Below, in pieces: positions 43,161 through 49,703 of a stretch of 64,000 bases of DNA. A program made the translations under genes and the position numbers. Where the stretch lies: NCBI GenBank assembly GCA_956465555.1, contig OY101118.1, positions 1,612,001 through 1,676,000 of the forward strand, read 5' to 3'. The notes below the pieces were generated by a model, which was given only the letters and a program-made list of their open reading frames with translations, was not told the origin of the DNA and did no database searches. Every line of letters begins with the position of its first letter. The first letter of the stretch is position 1. The stretch comes from Nitzschia sp. pyKryTriq1 (taxonomy: Eukaryota; Bacillariophyta; Bacillariophyceae; Bacillariales; Bacillariaceae).

Positions 43161-44408
43161 ATGATTCTGCGACTACCATTGATATTTTTGTCGTGTCGAA
43201 TTGCTGCCAGCTTTACTTTGTTCGAAAGCGCAACAAGAAGCTTCAAGTGCAACAATGTGGCCCTCCGCGATACTGGTACCGCCACCGCGCAAGCGGAGGC
43301 TACCCCAGCCGTGGCGTCAGCTCCCCGTACTCCTTTTAAAATTTTCAATGACCACAACGTGGAGCGAATAGACGAGTCTGATGGCCAGGGGATCAGTCAA
43401 TTGTCCGAAAATGTTGAGGCCCAGAAGGTTCTTCAACCGATCGTGTCGTGGTCCGAAATCCAACGACTCTCATCTAGCACCAAATCCACAATGGAAGAAA
43501 GAATGGAATTTGTTCATCGCTTTTCCTCGACAGGAGGCTATTTATTACTAGAACTGGAGGAAAGTCAAGCATACGTAGTGGAAGACATGTGGGCGTCGCT
43601 GCAAGCATTCTTTGATCGAGAAGATCTGAAAGACGACGAGTTGCATCACCAAACCATCGCTCGTGAAGGCGATGCACATGAGAACTTGGGATACAAATTT
43701 GTGCAGACCTATAATACACCGGGGGACCTTGTCTTGCCAACAACCATTCAGGAAGCTCTTGGAAACTCCCCTACGTCCCAACGTGGAGCTGCCGATTCCT
43801 TCTTGCTGCTAGCTGAGATTGCCTCCAAGATCGCCTCCGTCGTCGCTGCGGGGGCGCTGGATGAAGACCCCGAAGTCATGCAATCGGTGGTAGATGGTCT
43901 TCTCCATACGTCGTCCACGCATTTTGCTAGCTCCAACCATCGCTTATCCCGATACGTCTTGACGGAATCAGAGGCGAATCCACTCAAAGAATCCTTGCGA
44001 AGCCACACCGATTGGACTCTTACAACACCCATCCCTCTGAGTGCGACTTCGGGCCTCCATTTGTGGAAGCCACATTCGAAACAATGGGTTGCACCCGAGG
44101 CACTGGTGACGGGCTTGCCTCTTCCAAGGACCCGCTATGTCGTCGTCTTGGCCGGAAAGTGGATCGAGCTACTCACTAAGCAAAGGGTTTTGGCTTGTGT
44201 GCACCGGGTGGTAACCCAAACCTCCCAAGAGCCCCGTTTGAGTGCTCCTTTCTTTCTTCGACCCAAAGAATTTGTCTTTGAGAGTTTGAGCGGTCAATTC
44301 AACGACCCTGAACAAGCATCGGACGACATGTCAACAGAGGATGCAATAGCCCGAATCCATTCGATGTTTCAAGGTTTTATTGATCTAACGAAAGAAGCCG
44401 ACCGCTAA
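43161..44408 (+). CDS. 2-oxoglutarate/Fe(II)-dependent oxygenase (isopenicillin N synthase-like), secreted or organellar
   Basis: This is an intronless 415-residue protein. Residues 1-18 (MILRLPLIFLSCRIAASF) look like a signal peptide, and AASF then F/L-rich sequence resembles a plastid bipartite presequence. The C-terminal half has the 2OG-Fe(II) jelly-roll motifs: HTDW (H and D iron ligands, about residue 285), GLHLWKPHSKQWV, ACVHRVV (distal histidine) and RLSAPFFLRP (arginine that holds 2-oxoglutarate). The N-terminal half lacks the DIOX_N pattern of plant enzymes. The substrate is unknown. Its tail faces the selenoprotein gene, 268 bp away. Confidence 0.8.
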   Translation: MILRLPLIFLSCRIAASFTLFESATRSFKCNNVALRDTGTATAQAEATPAVASAPRTPFKIFNDHNVERIDESDGQGISQLSENVEAQKVLQPIVSWSEIQRLSSSTKSTMEERMEFVHRFSSTGGYLLLELEESQAYVVEDMWASLQAFFDREDLKDDELHHQTIAREGDAHENLGYKFVQTYNTPGDLVLPTTIQEALGNSPTSQRGAADSFLLLAEIASKIASVVAAGALDEDPEVMQSVVDGLLHTSSTHFASSNHRLSRYVLTESEANPLKESLRSHTDWTLTTPIPLSATSGLHLWKPHSKQWVAPEALVTGLPLPRTRYVVVLAGKWIELLTKQRVLACVHRVVTQTSQEPRLSAPFFLRPKEFVFESLSGQFNDPEQASDDMSTEDAIARIHSMFQGFIDLTKEADR

Positions 44409-44529
44409 TCGATAATGAAACAAACTCGAGAATATTATTGTGTGTTACTCCTAGAGTCGTCAACTACTCTTCGGCCTCTCCGTTTCAACGCCTAACAAAT
44501 AATAGTATGCTGCTTCTAGGCATCGTCTC

Positions 44530-44582
44530 TTGCTTGTCAGTTGCCGAATATCCTGAGGAGTATCTGGCAACGTCATTCGCAT
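44530..44582 (-). promoter_or_regulatory. Candidate SECIS element in the selenoprotein 3' UTR
   Basis: About 100 nt downstream of the selenoprotein stop, the minus strand can fold into a stem-loop. It has ATGA at 44576-44573 and TGA at 44539-44537 where the SECIS quartet should be. The stem GTTGCC/GGCAAC continues with AGATA/TATTC. This gives about 11 pairs below an apical loop of about 10 bases with the sequence CTCC. Most SECIS loops carry AA, a few carry CC; this would be the CC type. The fold is judged by eye only. Confidence 0.4.
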
Positions 44583-44676
44583 TCGTACGAGATATCAACA
44601 GCAGTGAGATTTGTAAGTACATCGCCGGATAGTAGTCATTGTTGATGGCCGTGGCCGTGGCCGTGACACACTCTGT

Positions 44677-45534
44677 CTAGAGGCCAAAGAAGCTAGGGAG
44701 TTGAAAGGCCGGGGCTTTCTTGGTAGCTTCCTCCTTTGCAATCTGGAAAACTCTCTCAATGTCGGGATGATCACCAGGGAGGCGATCGCTCCATCGATAC
44801 CTGATGTCATTTCCATTGACCACAAAAGTACCACCCAGTCGCAATACTCCCTCCGGGATTTCTCCAAACTTCATGTCTTTGGGAATGGGGGCTAGTTTTC
44901 CGGCACTGGTGAGGTAGTCCCAAGCTCCCTTGAGACCCAAATCAGGTGCTTTCATGTTCTTCGCCGCCTCTTTTGCAACGTCCTTGTCTTGTTCATCAAA
45001 ACGTCCGAAACCGGCAGCCTTGTAGGCGTCAAAATTGTAGTCGTCCACAAAGACATTCTCACGATCCACATAGGGATTCTTTTCCAGGAAGAGATTTAGT
45101 TTTTCTTCGTCGCCAATGGAAATGAAAATGGGCCCGGAAATACCAGTCATATCTTCCCTTTGCTGGAGCTCACACCAATCTTTGGTGTAGCTCCAGCAGT
45201 AAGGTCACCCAGCGTGTCGTAGAAAGATTACGATGGAAGTACCCGGGCCCATTTTCTCATCCAAGCGAATTGTTTTGCCGTCAGCGTTCGTCAATATGGC
45301 CGATCGGAGAGCCTTGGCAGTCACGCTCTCTGGAATAACGTCATCTGGCATAGCACACGGAGCCTGCTCACCAGTGGTTGATGATGTGCTCGAGAGTATC
45401 AAAAGACTAGACTGCGATGCATCTACCGTCGCCATCGAGGAGCCTCGAAAGGCATTGGGCTGGAAGGCCGTGGCACTGAAGGTAGCAGCCGCAAAGGCTG
45501 CGACTGCTACTACAGCAGAGTAACCAAATTTCAT
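44677..45534 (-). CDS. Selenoprotein of the PRXL2/SelU-SelL-like AhpC-TSA family, Sec in a UxxC site
   Basis: One frame runs from ATG 45534 to 44677 (285 residues) interrupted only by TGA at 45207-45205. Reading TGA as selenocysteine gives VIFLRHAG-U-PYC at residues 102-113. Related thioredoxin-fold antioxidant proteins have 'FLRHxGCxxC' there, so Sec replaces the catalytic cysteine exactly. The frame stays open on both sides: 18 codons (PYCWSYTKDWCELQQRED) link to MTGISGPIFISIGDEEKLNLFL and the rest of the fold, including GTFVVNGNDIRYRW, the usual late strand. Residues 1-22 (MKFGYSAVVAVAAFAAATFSATA followed by FQP) look like a signal peptide with a diatom plastid-type A-F cleavage site. Likely job: peroxide or thiol redox control, perhaps in the plastid. 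It is divergent from channel B. Confidence 0.88.
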
Positions 45535-45860: not shown

Positions 45861-47551
45861 ATGAACTGTTCCTCTTGTGACACTTCACAGAATTCCTTGC
45901 ACATGTATGGCACGATGCAGCAATCGGCTACAAACAAGCAGCCGTTGCTGGCGGAAAGTAACGATCGATATCAAGGCGATCAGATTCCGATTGGAACGAC
46001 TTCCGGTGCAACGGCAACGGTAGCGGCAACGACAACGACAACGGCAGCAGGGAACGGGAGCAGACGAGATGGGTTGGTACGAGCGCCGAGTGCAAGGAAT
46101 GGTCCAGTCTTAGCTTTTATCTTGGATAAATCGCACAATCAAAAGAAGCACAGTGACGTACCAGTACCCGTTAGGTCTACTAGCAATTTGGAGCTGACGG
46201 GCGAACATACCCTTGCGACACTTCCACCGAGACCGAAATCGTTTGTGTACACAATGCTGAATCCGCGGTCTGACGCATGGCAAGCAGTCGTCTACAAAGG
46301 CTTCATTGCGGTTGTGATTATTTCAGTGAGTTTGCAACAGTACGACATGTGTGTTGACACGCACTTGGTTTTGGAATATTTATGACCTTCTTTCTGACTG
46401 ATTTCGATGATTCGTACGTGTACCCAAATACGTTCCTCTCAGGATCTTGTGTCATTTGTGATTTCGACCGAGCCAAATCTGAGTGACTACCACAGGCGAG
46501 TCTTCCACATGTGGGAAGGGGTCACCTCTACCATTTTTCTCGTTGAATATATCACGCGTCTGGTGGTGGTCATGGAGTCACAAAAATATTACGAACAAGG
46601 GCCCTTCTGGGGAAGAGTCAGCTATGCTTTGACGTGGTCGGCATTGATCGATTTCTTGGCCACGTTCCCTTTCTTTGCGGAACTTGCAACTGGATGGGAT
46701 TTACCCACTTTGACCTACCTTCGATCCTTTCGGTTGCTCCGCATTTTTAAAACAAGTGGGTTTTCCGAGGCCACGCGAGCCGTGTACAGGGTCATTTATT
46801 ACAATCGCCAGATATTGTATGTCGCTTTATTGATTTGTGTGGGTCTGATCCTGCTGACAGCTGTTCTGATGTACTACTTGAGGCCACAAAATCCAGAACA
46901 CTCACAAGATTTCCAGTCATTGGGGGCGACCATGTACTTATCGACGCTCATGTTAACCGGGCAGGGAGGGCCTGAAGGCGACATGCCGTGGTATACCAAA
47001 GGCGTCGTCCTTCTGACGGGGATCTTCAGTATTGGTATGTTTGCCATACCCGCTAGTATGTTAACCTGGGGATTCGAAGCAGAGGCAGAACGAATGGCAC
47101 AAGTCGCCTATGCCAAACGAAGGCAGCCACAGACCAACGCGGAACAGGACAATTGGTCGTATTCGTCAGAAGACTACTCAACAGGTGAGATGATGGTGCC
47201 GAAATTCATCCGGCAGCAAGCAACACCACGAACCAAACTAACTATTTTTCGCGAATAGATGAGGAATACGTTCGCATCATAGCTGGTGGCGATGGAGAGG
47301 AGGATGAAGACGCCGAGGCAATGAAAACATTCACTTTGGCAGACATTGACGGATCAGGAACTATTTCCTTATCGGAATATTTGGCATTATCCAGAAACCA
47401 GGCAGCAGGGGCAAAGGCAGGGAAATCGTCTATTGCAGTAAATCAAGAGTTGACCGCTCGATTGGACGTTCTGGAGAAACGAATTGAGAATAACAGTCAA
47501 AAGCTCGACAAAATATGCCGTCTGTTGGAGGGAATGCAAGTCAAGAGCTAG
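45861..47551 (+). CDS. Voltage-gated ion channel with EF-hand (channel B)
   Basis: Exons 45861-46325, 46443-47184 and 47259-47551 join in frame to 499 residues. The start may be at 45861, 45903 or 45915. The spliced S1 reads AVVIIS|DLVSFVISTEP. S2 has TIFLVEYITRLVV, S3 has ALIDFLATFPFF, and S4 has RSFRLLRIFK. The pore segment is ATMYLSTLMLTGQGGPEGD. S6 reads MFAIPASMLTWGFEAEAERMAQ. A canonical EF-hand loop (DIDGSGTISLSE, about 431-442) and a C-terminal coiled coil (ELTARLDVLEKRIENNSQKLDKICRLL) follow. The 5' third is Thr/Ser-rich. The second intron sits at the same place (STG/DEEY) as in channel A, which shows common descent. It is tail to tail with channel C, 58 bp apart. Confidence 0.85.
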
Positions 47552-47609
47552 CTAGCTTGACTTCGCTTTTGAAGCGTTCAATGCTTAAGTTTCTCCAGAC
47601 TACTTCTAA

Positions 47610-49250
47610 TCACACAATACGTTGGATATCATCATTTCCCTCTAGCAATTCACAGAGTTTGTCCAACTTCGAGTGAATCGTTGCGACGGATGATTCTAGA
47701 TTTTGCATCCGATGCTGTAGGTTTGCAATGTCGTTTGATAGGGGCTCCGTATCGACCAAAGTGGTTGGTACGTAGGGTGGCTCAGCACGATGGCCTGTGT
47801 TGGCCAGGAAATCAGCAAGTGCAAAATATTTTTTACCCTCTCTATCGTCTTTCATGTAGGCACTTGTCATTTCTTTGATTTTCTCCATGTTTTTGTCGTC
47901 GTCAACTTCTGTGCTTTCGCTTGTGTCTTTGGCAATAATTCTTAGATATTCGTCGTCAGAATTCATAGAATTTGCTCTCTCAGCCGCCACATCTACCATT
48001 GACTTATTTGCTTGTTTGATATCGGCCCTCGTTTTTCGTGCACATCTCTCGGCTTCCGCTTCGAAACCCCACGTCAGGAGACTTACAGGGATTGCATACA
48101 TCGCCACGGACAATGCTCCAGTTAATCCTACGACGACTTTGGTATACCACTGCAGAGGAATTAACATGTGAGTGAGTCGAGAAGACTTCAAGTTCCTTCA
48201 AGGAAAAAAGAAACTCACCGGCATTTCTTCACTGGAACGGATGAACGAGTCTTGACCCGTCAGAATGAGCACAGATAAGTATAGCGTCGATGGTATAGAC
48301 TGGAATCCCACCCCATCGTCTCCTTCTCGCGGTCGACAATAGTACAGCAAAACGGAAGATATCACAACCAGGAAAAAACAAATAAGCAATGCCACCGAGA
48401 GGATCTCTCGATTGAAATAAACCACCCTGTAGCAGGCGCTAAAAGCCCGAGCATAGCCATCAGTTTTCATGATTCTCAGTACTCTGAATATTCTTAAGTA
48501 AGTGAGCGTCGGCATGTCAAAACCAGTCAGCAGCTGGATGAAAAATGGAGCCGTTGCCATCACATCGATGATCGCGTGAAAAGAAACCATCCACCAAAGC
48601 CGACCCAAAACAGGCCCACGATCACCAAACTTTTTATTTTCCACGCAAACAGAGACTCGAGCAATGTACTCGACAAGAAAAATGCTCGTCGTAACGCCCT
48701 CGATGGCTTGAAACCATACCCAGTACTTCACGTATATACGCTCCTCGGTGGAAATGACGAAGGCGATCAAATCGGCAATAATCAAGGTCGAAATAAATTT
48801 CTTAAACACTTCTGCGTACCACACCCCGGAACGGGGATGCAACATCGTGTAGACACAGGAATGATGTTGCTCTAGATCGTCAATTTCTGAAGGTCTTGGC
48901 GTAAAGATGGCGCGTAGGACACCTGATCTTCGTTGGGGGGTATCATGCTTATAAATCGCGGGATGCGCCGATCTTCTCCTGTCAGATGCAGTCATATAAT
49001 TTGTCGGTGTATCGGAAACGTCCATATCATATGCTCGGTAACCTACTGGCTGAGATACAATCCTTCTGTGACCCGAGCCTAAATTCCGTATGCTGTTGCT
49101 GGGGGAATCTACGAGGAGGAAGCCATGACCAACTGGCTGCGAATCCCCTCTCCTGTGACGTGGAGAGTCATACTGCGTCGTTCTATCATGATCATTGAGA
49201 TTGAAATTTTGATAGTAAGATAGATCCTCCTCGTCGATCGGGGACGCCAT
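47610..49250 (-). CDS. Voltage-gated ion channel (channel C), EF-hand decayed
   Basis: Exons 49250-48219 and 48149-47610 join in frame to 523 residues, restoring SSEEMP|WYTKVVVGLTG. The start is ATG 49250 (MASPIDEEDL). S1 ends IADLIAFVISTEE, S2 has IFLVEYIARV, S3 has IIDVMATAPFFI, and S4 (about 258-268) has RIFRVLRIMK. The pore segment is STLYLSVLILTGQDSF, and S6 is MYAIPVSLLTWGFEAEAERCA. The place of the EF-hand loop holds KDDREGKKYFALADF, which lacks the canonical spacing of acidic residues, so calcium binding is doubtful. A coiled coil (NDIANLQHRMQNLESSVATIHSKLDKLCELL) ends the protein. The intron position differs from A and B: it sits before S6 rather than inside it. Confidence 0.85.
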
Positions 49251-49703
49251 CTTGCTTCTTCTTTTTTGAAAAGTGAATTGAAAGAGTTGTTGGAATGGCG
49301 AAATTCGAGGAACGATGTATTGTGCGACAAAATTAGCCGACATCACAAGGGAACGGAACGCCGGCTGGCGACAAAAATTCCGTTGGGCGTTGGGCGGTAT
49401 GCACTCGACAACAAAAACCGTCACACGTCACACGAAGAATAAAATCCGACTGTGACCGTGGTACGTTATTGTTGCAGCCGCTGTGTCCAGCGTGTATTTA
49501 CCAATACAGGTCTCTCTCTCTCTACGAGTACCGGTAGTCTACAAGTAGTAGTAGTAGTAGAGAGAGAGAGAGAGAGATCAGGTAGATCTAGACTAGAGTG
49601 GCTCAAATGGATCAAATTATTAGAATATACAGATGGACGGGTTTCGAGTGTGAAATGTAACAGCCAGTGTTTGTTGGTCGTGATGACCTATATTATTCGT
49701 TCT
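49251..49703. repeat. Intergenic DNA with CT/AG microsatellites that pair
   Basis: A (CT)n tract at about 49509-49522 and an (AG)n tract at about 49558-49577 flank a GTACCGGTA word and a (GTA)n run. The two tracts are complementary and could fold back. No gene is seen in the gap. Confidence 0.75.

Follow-up and report, generated by a model that had tools for sequence, protein, structure and literature searches.

A strongly supported selenoprotein gene with a UxxC redox site and a candidate SECIS-type element in the diatom Nitzschia sp. pyKryTriq1

The window, that is, the whole stretch of 64,000 nucleotides that was analyzed (contig OY101118.1 of GCA_956465555.1, positions 1,612,001 to 1,676,000 of the forward strand), carries on its minus strand a reading frame of 285 codons with a single internal TGA, followed by a candidate RNA element. 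The features of the locus, numbered from the first letter of the window, are as follows.

44677..45534, minus strand: coding sequence, 285 amino acids; no intron required; TAG stop at 44679-44677
45325..45534, minus strand: N-terminal presequence, residues 1-70; A-T-A/F24-Q-P, like the diatom ASAFAP plastid motif, comes after a hydrophobic stretch
44719..45324, minus strand: thioredoxin/peroxiredoxin-like domain, residues 71-272 (AlphaFold2, Foldseek)
45205..45207, minus strand: in-frame TGA, codon 110, putatively read as selenocysteine (Sec); Cys in the C5 paralog, TGA in the C6 paralog
45196..45198, minus strand: codon of Cys113, presumably the resolving residue of UxxC; unchanged in all 30 alignment rows and aligned with C47 of human prostamide/prostaglandin F synthase (PGFS)
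44523..44590, minus strand: SECIS-type element of the 3' UTR, made up of helix I, GAATGAC (44578-44572), helix II hairpin (44571-44540), TGAC (44539-44536)

The convergent neighboring ORF at 43161-44408 (plus strand) contains a 2OG-Fe(II) oxygenase domain (PF03171, E = 1.2e-5), and because it ends at 44408, the element lies inside a 268-nt inter-ORF stretch. Neighboring ORF regions with Ion_trans matches (PF00520), apparently with introns, are located at 45861-47258 (plus strand) and 47430-49343 (minus strand).

Translation from 45534 to 44677 with TGA as Sec gave exactly one TGA, in the context FLRHAG-U-PYC, and the coding sequence matched the genome searched (40.65 Mb, 20 contigs) at 100% with that one TGA inside. 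Contig C20 of that genome (123.5 kb) carries a psaA fragment, for which the top PDB matches were 8zeh, 8xls, 6ly5, and 6l4u, structures of diatom photosystem I. The initial annotation had placed the TGA (45207-45205) where relatives carry the catalytic Cys, and the alignment bears this out, with Cys or TGA at the position in 29 of 29 relatives; a residue other than Cys or Sec, which would have spoken against its reading, was found in 0 of the 29, 27 of which had been fetched through a Cys-containing pattern. The frame is open past the TGA, as had been stated, for 175 codons (285 − 110) instead of the 178 given, and the later fold motifs are, as claimed, retained downstream. The codon pattern xFLRxxGUxxC had one match in the window, at codon 110, and none in 100 shuffles. 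Genome-wide, FLRxxGUxxC matched three times, namely, in the TGA-110 gene, in the C6 paralog, and at a third site with more stops right after the match; this last was discarded as a chance match, because the genome read backwards also yields one.

Two paralogs in the same genome bear on the TGA site. The closest, the C5 paralog (C5:1336054-1336707), is 53% identical across residues 70-284 and free of stops, with FLRHLG-C-TWC at the site; the C6 paralog (L008:1432-2385) reads FLRSLG-TGA-PLC, i.e., UxxC with an in-frame TGA at the same codon. The C6 paralog needs one spliceable, normal 81-nt GT-AG intron, further on and away from the TGA, and has its own GAATGA element 36 nt past the stop. Bacterial relatives at 27 loci (Planctomycetota, Acidobacteriota, and Verrucomicrobiota) read FLRHxGCxFC and, by alignment, are homologous along the domain; because the main pattern of the scan that fetched them contained the Cys, they are not an unbiased Cys count, and for the Cys/TGA site just the two paralogs from this genome are free of that bias. 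The 30 alignment rows show no variation at V102, F104, L105, R106, G109, C/U110, C113, or Y171. Searches of viral contigs (also with the Sec-codon pattern), plasmids, and phages returned no relatives of the protein.

In comparison with the C5 Cys paralog, pN and pS were 0.32 and 0.77 after the TGA (172 codons) and 0.28 and 0.88 before it (40 codons), dN/dS for this pair not being computable with dS saturated. Synonymous differences thus exceed nonsynonymous ones more than twofold, and the constraint relative to C5 persists, as far as codon comparison indicates, past the TGA. In comparison with the C6 paralog, dN/dS was 0.53 after the TGA and 0.25 before it, a weaker contrast than that with C5. 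Sec is probably the older state in these paralogs, because it is present in the C6 paralog and the TGA-110 gene and Cys in C5 alone.

An AlphaFold2 model from a 3-row alignment was poor (mean pLDDT of 51.4), and the model from the 30-row alignment was used instead (mean pLDDT of 72.6; 120 residues at 90 or above). The latter predicts the strands and helices of a thioredoxin/peroxiredoxin, with 10-residue block means of 87-97 at residues 71-170 and 231-270 and of 47-76 in an insert at about residues 171-230. Residue 110 lies directly ahead of helix 111-126, and the predicted model has the PRXL2 fold with UxxC/CxxC at a helix start. The best Foldseek matches were human PGFS entries 9usa (E = 4.5e-9, target TM of 0.76) and 9us9 (E = 1.0e-7, target TM of 0.82), an enzyme which we take to be PRXL2B, followed by the peroxiredoxins Bcp4, AhpE, and Tpx. 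A family profile searched against the PDB likewise matched 9us9 (E = 8e-10), with the CxxC pair aligned with C44 and C47, the residues on which the Foldseek alignments (18-20% identity) place U110 and C113; the UxxC site in an AhpC-TSA/PRXL2-type fold that the initial annotation described is thereby supported. A single-sequence phmmer search of the PDB gave nothing beyond three matches (E = 0.26 to 1.4), in which the presequence resembles light-harvesting proteins. The sole NCBIfam family listed for the protein was the SelL-related NF040769 (49.9 bits versus a cut-off of 120, E = 2.7e-13), which matched 30 of 30 alignment rows. Pfam AhpC-TSA scored below threshold (15.7 of 26 bits), and no match to PF13911 (AhpC-TSA_2) was listed for the protein at E values up to 10; PF13911 matched 28 of the 30 family-alignment members and the C6 paralog at 32.2 versus 27 bits. 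The protein is a member of the PRXL2/SelL/AhpC-TSA superfamily.

The genome contains three genes for tRNA-Sec with anticodon TCA (74-75 bits versus a cut-off of 47). Two of them (L011 and L012, C4:2830576-2830822) are in tandem, with starts 161 nt apart and identical sequences, and the third copy (L010) is on C5. Ten further genes carry TGA at what we take to be the Sec positions of their families: three GPx genes, a SelT-like gene, SelM, SPS2, two MsrA genes, and two SelU genes. The SelU genes with TGA read RRPG-TGA-FLC and RRPG-TGA-VLC, and one with Cys reads KRPGCVLC (loci L002, L001, and L004). Judged from these three tRNA-Sec(TCA) genes, SPS2 with its TGA, and the other TGA genes, the machinery for Sec decoding is present.

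The element 3' of the TGA-110 gene starts 98 nt past the stop and consists of GAATGAC, a 32-nt hairpin (−11.9 kcal/mol), TGAC, and a lower helix, with a quartet core between two helices. The rule used to score such elements (GAATGA-hairpin-NGAN, ≤ −6 kcal/mol, no more than 500 nt past the stop) was derived from the ten TGA genes first examined, the TGA-110 gene and the C6 paralog included, and all ten satisfy it. Two SelU genes were tested afterwards; SelU-C14 passed (element 86 nt past the stop, −9.9), and SelU-C8, with GAATGA at 76 nt past the stop, failed the strict form on the hairpin, which brings the overall count to 11 of 12 TGA genes. None of six Cys or non-Sec control genes (seven listed, one not found; the motif missed 6 of 8 Cys MsrA loci) had an element at or below −6. 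GAATGA as such does occur in the C5 Cys paralog, one of the controls, but with a hairpin of only −3.1, and in one Cys MsrA, where the hairpin is lacking. Across both strands of the window, 44 GAATGA sites but one full element were found, that of the TGA-110 gene, and shuffling its 3' UTR produced an element in 60 of 5,000 cases. Away from the 3' ends of TGA genes, elements at or below −6 occurred at about 8 places in the fetched own-genome loci (282 kb, both strands, overlaps counted). The core common to the candidate SECIS elements is GAATGA...TGA, with CGA for TGA in GPxA. Elements were seen in the 3' regions of L008, L025, L028, L029, L030, L066, L068, L069, L070, and L002, and the upper stems of several candidates are long and strongly paired. 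Past its stop, the SelT-like gene (L025) carries a pair of GAATGA hairpin elements spaced 240 nt apart, perhaps a double SECIS.

The candidate elements resemble eukaryotic SECIS (NTGA..AA/CC..GA) in their 3' UTR position and in a non-Watson-Crick ATGA/TGA core between two helices; unlike it, the 12 elements examined here (11 genes, SelT having two) all lack an apical AA or CC 10-13 nt from the quartet. A published SECIS search rule requires AA or CC at that distance past the quartet, and its source reports 16 selenoproteins for the diatom Thalassiosira pseudonana (PMC2375036). Because that search succeeded in a diatom, the absence of AA/CC may be lineage specific, or the folds drawn here may not be the active ones. 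Among the matches listed (titles and abstract openings) on diatom SECIS apical loops, no description of a diatom SECIS lacking AA/CC appeared. Our first SECIS scan demanded AA, CC, AC, or CA in the loop; it found the element of the TGA-110 gene through AC, gave weak and distant matches for GPxB and SelT, and gave nothing for GPxA, GPxC, or the C6 paralog. Once the loop requirement was dropped, the common GAATGA core emerged across the TGA genes. Rfam RF00031 (SECIS_1) had no match in the genome at E values up to 10, and Rfam searches of the whole window and near the gene listed no SECIS. A snoRNA match overlapping the element (44534-44580) was rejected as below cut-off (16.6 versus 108 bits).

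Very probably, the gene encodes a selenoprotein in which UGA-110 is read as Sec through tRNA-Sec(UCA) and the SECIS, giving a PRXL2/SelL-related UxxC oxidoreductase. The main evidence for Sec, none of it named in the initial annotation, is the SECIS-type element, the tRNA-Sec, and the paralogs, with Cys at the site in C5 and TGA in C6; on sequence grounds the selenoprotein reading is strongly supported, in agreement with the Sec originally proposed for this TGA. The stop could alternatively have arisen by mutation of a Cys codon (TGC or TGT) or by its misreading in the assembly, leaving a truncated product; TGA is one base away from the Cys codons, and in the Cys paralog a single step would turn 85 of 285 codons into a stop. 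However, the sole stop falls on the catalytic-type Cys, the C6 paralog has TGA at that same codon, the frame has no frameshift or other stop, constraint goes on downstream, and a SECIS-type element and tRNA-Sec are at hand, all of which makes a pseudogene or an assembly error highly improbable. Least credible of all is the removal of the TGA from the mRNA by an intron. Fifteen in-frame GT-AG pairs of 40-200 nt do span the TGA, but no gap interrupts the alignment with the Cys paralog and the 27 bacterial proteins across FLRHxG(C/U)xxC, and each such excision would delete part of the conserved core.

With regard to subclass, SelL has its Sec residues spaced as UxxU, and strict SelL (two Sec, UxxU) is excluded here, because residue 113 is Cys (U110 and C113). 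NF040769 is nevertheless the best curated family match, albeit below its cut-off, and what the SelL-related group and this protein share is a Prx-like domain with an FLRHxGCxxC core common to proteins of Planctomycetota, Acidobacteriota, and Verrucomicrobiota. Two Sec are also given for SelL in PMC3473315. The idea that UxxC might define a new subclass, put forward in the initial annotation, is weak, because algae already have known UxxC selenoproteins in this superfamily: two SelU genes here have UxxC, and PMC7539508 describes SELENOU as among the most widespread algal selenoproteins, lists SELENOL for algae, and presents AhpC_b of Thalassiosira oceanica as a UxxC AhpC-type selenoprotein whose prokaryotic homologs have CxxC. 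The TGA-110 protein has the same combination of UxxC and prokaryotic CxxC homologs, and, compared by description only (a diatom protein, UxxC, an AhpC-TSA-type domain, otherwise prokaryotic CxxC homologs), AhpC_b may belong to the same family.

It appears unlikely that the gene should be classed as a genuine SelU (SELENOU) ortholog and not as SelL related. The two share UxxC, the fold, and the superfamily, as seen in the PF13911 matches of most family-alignment members, and the nearest solved structure is PGFS. In the tree, SelU adjoins the three diatom paralogs with support of 81/86 on long branches, the TGA-110 gene and the C5 Cys paralog group at 100/99, and C6 joins them at 93/73. Long branches are flagged for the C6 protein, whose joining of the TGA-110 gene carries a warning, for one bacterial row, and for the Prx row; because of these and of the long SelU stem, the tree leaves SelL versus SelU unsettled. 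Against a SelU ortholog, the protein is without a listed PF13911 match and its sole listed NCBIfam is SelL related, and its FLRHAGUPYC differs from the RRPGUxLC of the separate SelU genes in this genome.

The position of the TGA, the homology, the tRNA-Sec and SPS2 genes, the RNA element, and the predicted fold come from the sequence; Sec insertion and the catalysis, substrate, and location of a PRXL2/SelL-related selenoenzyme are inferred as follows. Ribosomes would decode UGA-110 as Sec with tRNA-Sec(UCA) and the SECIS kink-turn hairpin about 98 nt past the stop, and the product would be a Prx-like thiol-selenol oxidoreductase of thioredoxin fold with UxxC at the start of its first long helix. 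The Sec110 selenolate may attack a peroxide or a disulfide-type substrate and would then be resolved by Cys113, with formation of a selenenylsulfide. A thioredoxin-like reductant could reset the enzyme, and would do so in the plastid if the presequence functions as its appearance suggests. All three paralogs have the hydrophobic stretch followed by FQ. According to PMC4329603, plastid presequences of diatoms combine an ASAFAP motif, in which Phe occupies +1, with a transit peptide that is positively charged overall. Here the net charge over the 20 residues that begin at F24 is 0, short of a strong transit peptide, and plastid targeting, at which the initial annotation had hinted, is put forward as no more than plausible.

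More tentatively, we suggest, as a possibility rather less favored than not, that Sec insertion in this diatom relies on a lineage-specific SECIS, in which the GAATGA/TGA kink-turn core is conserved, the upper stems vary, and the apical AA/CC is absent. It would serve a plastid-directed UxxC branch of the SelL/PRXL2 superfamily, separate from both SelU and SelL, in which Sec and Cys forms have been kept side by side. The diatom selenoproteome gains a well-supported member, and with Sec and Cys paralogs as a natural pair within one genome, one can ask what selenium buys a plastid-type redox enzyme. Because the published AA/CC rule fits 0 of 12 elements here, selenoproteomes of related algae may be undercounted if the pattern is general. 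As a separate observation, 16 bacterial SelL-related proteins have an extra N-terminal hydrophobic stretch, by eye a multi-span membrane region, ahead of the redox domain (L031, L032, L034-L038, L041, L043, L045, L048, L049, L051-L053, and L057).
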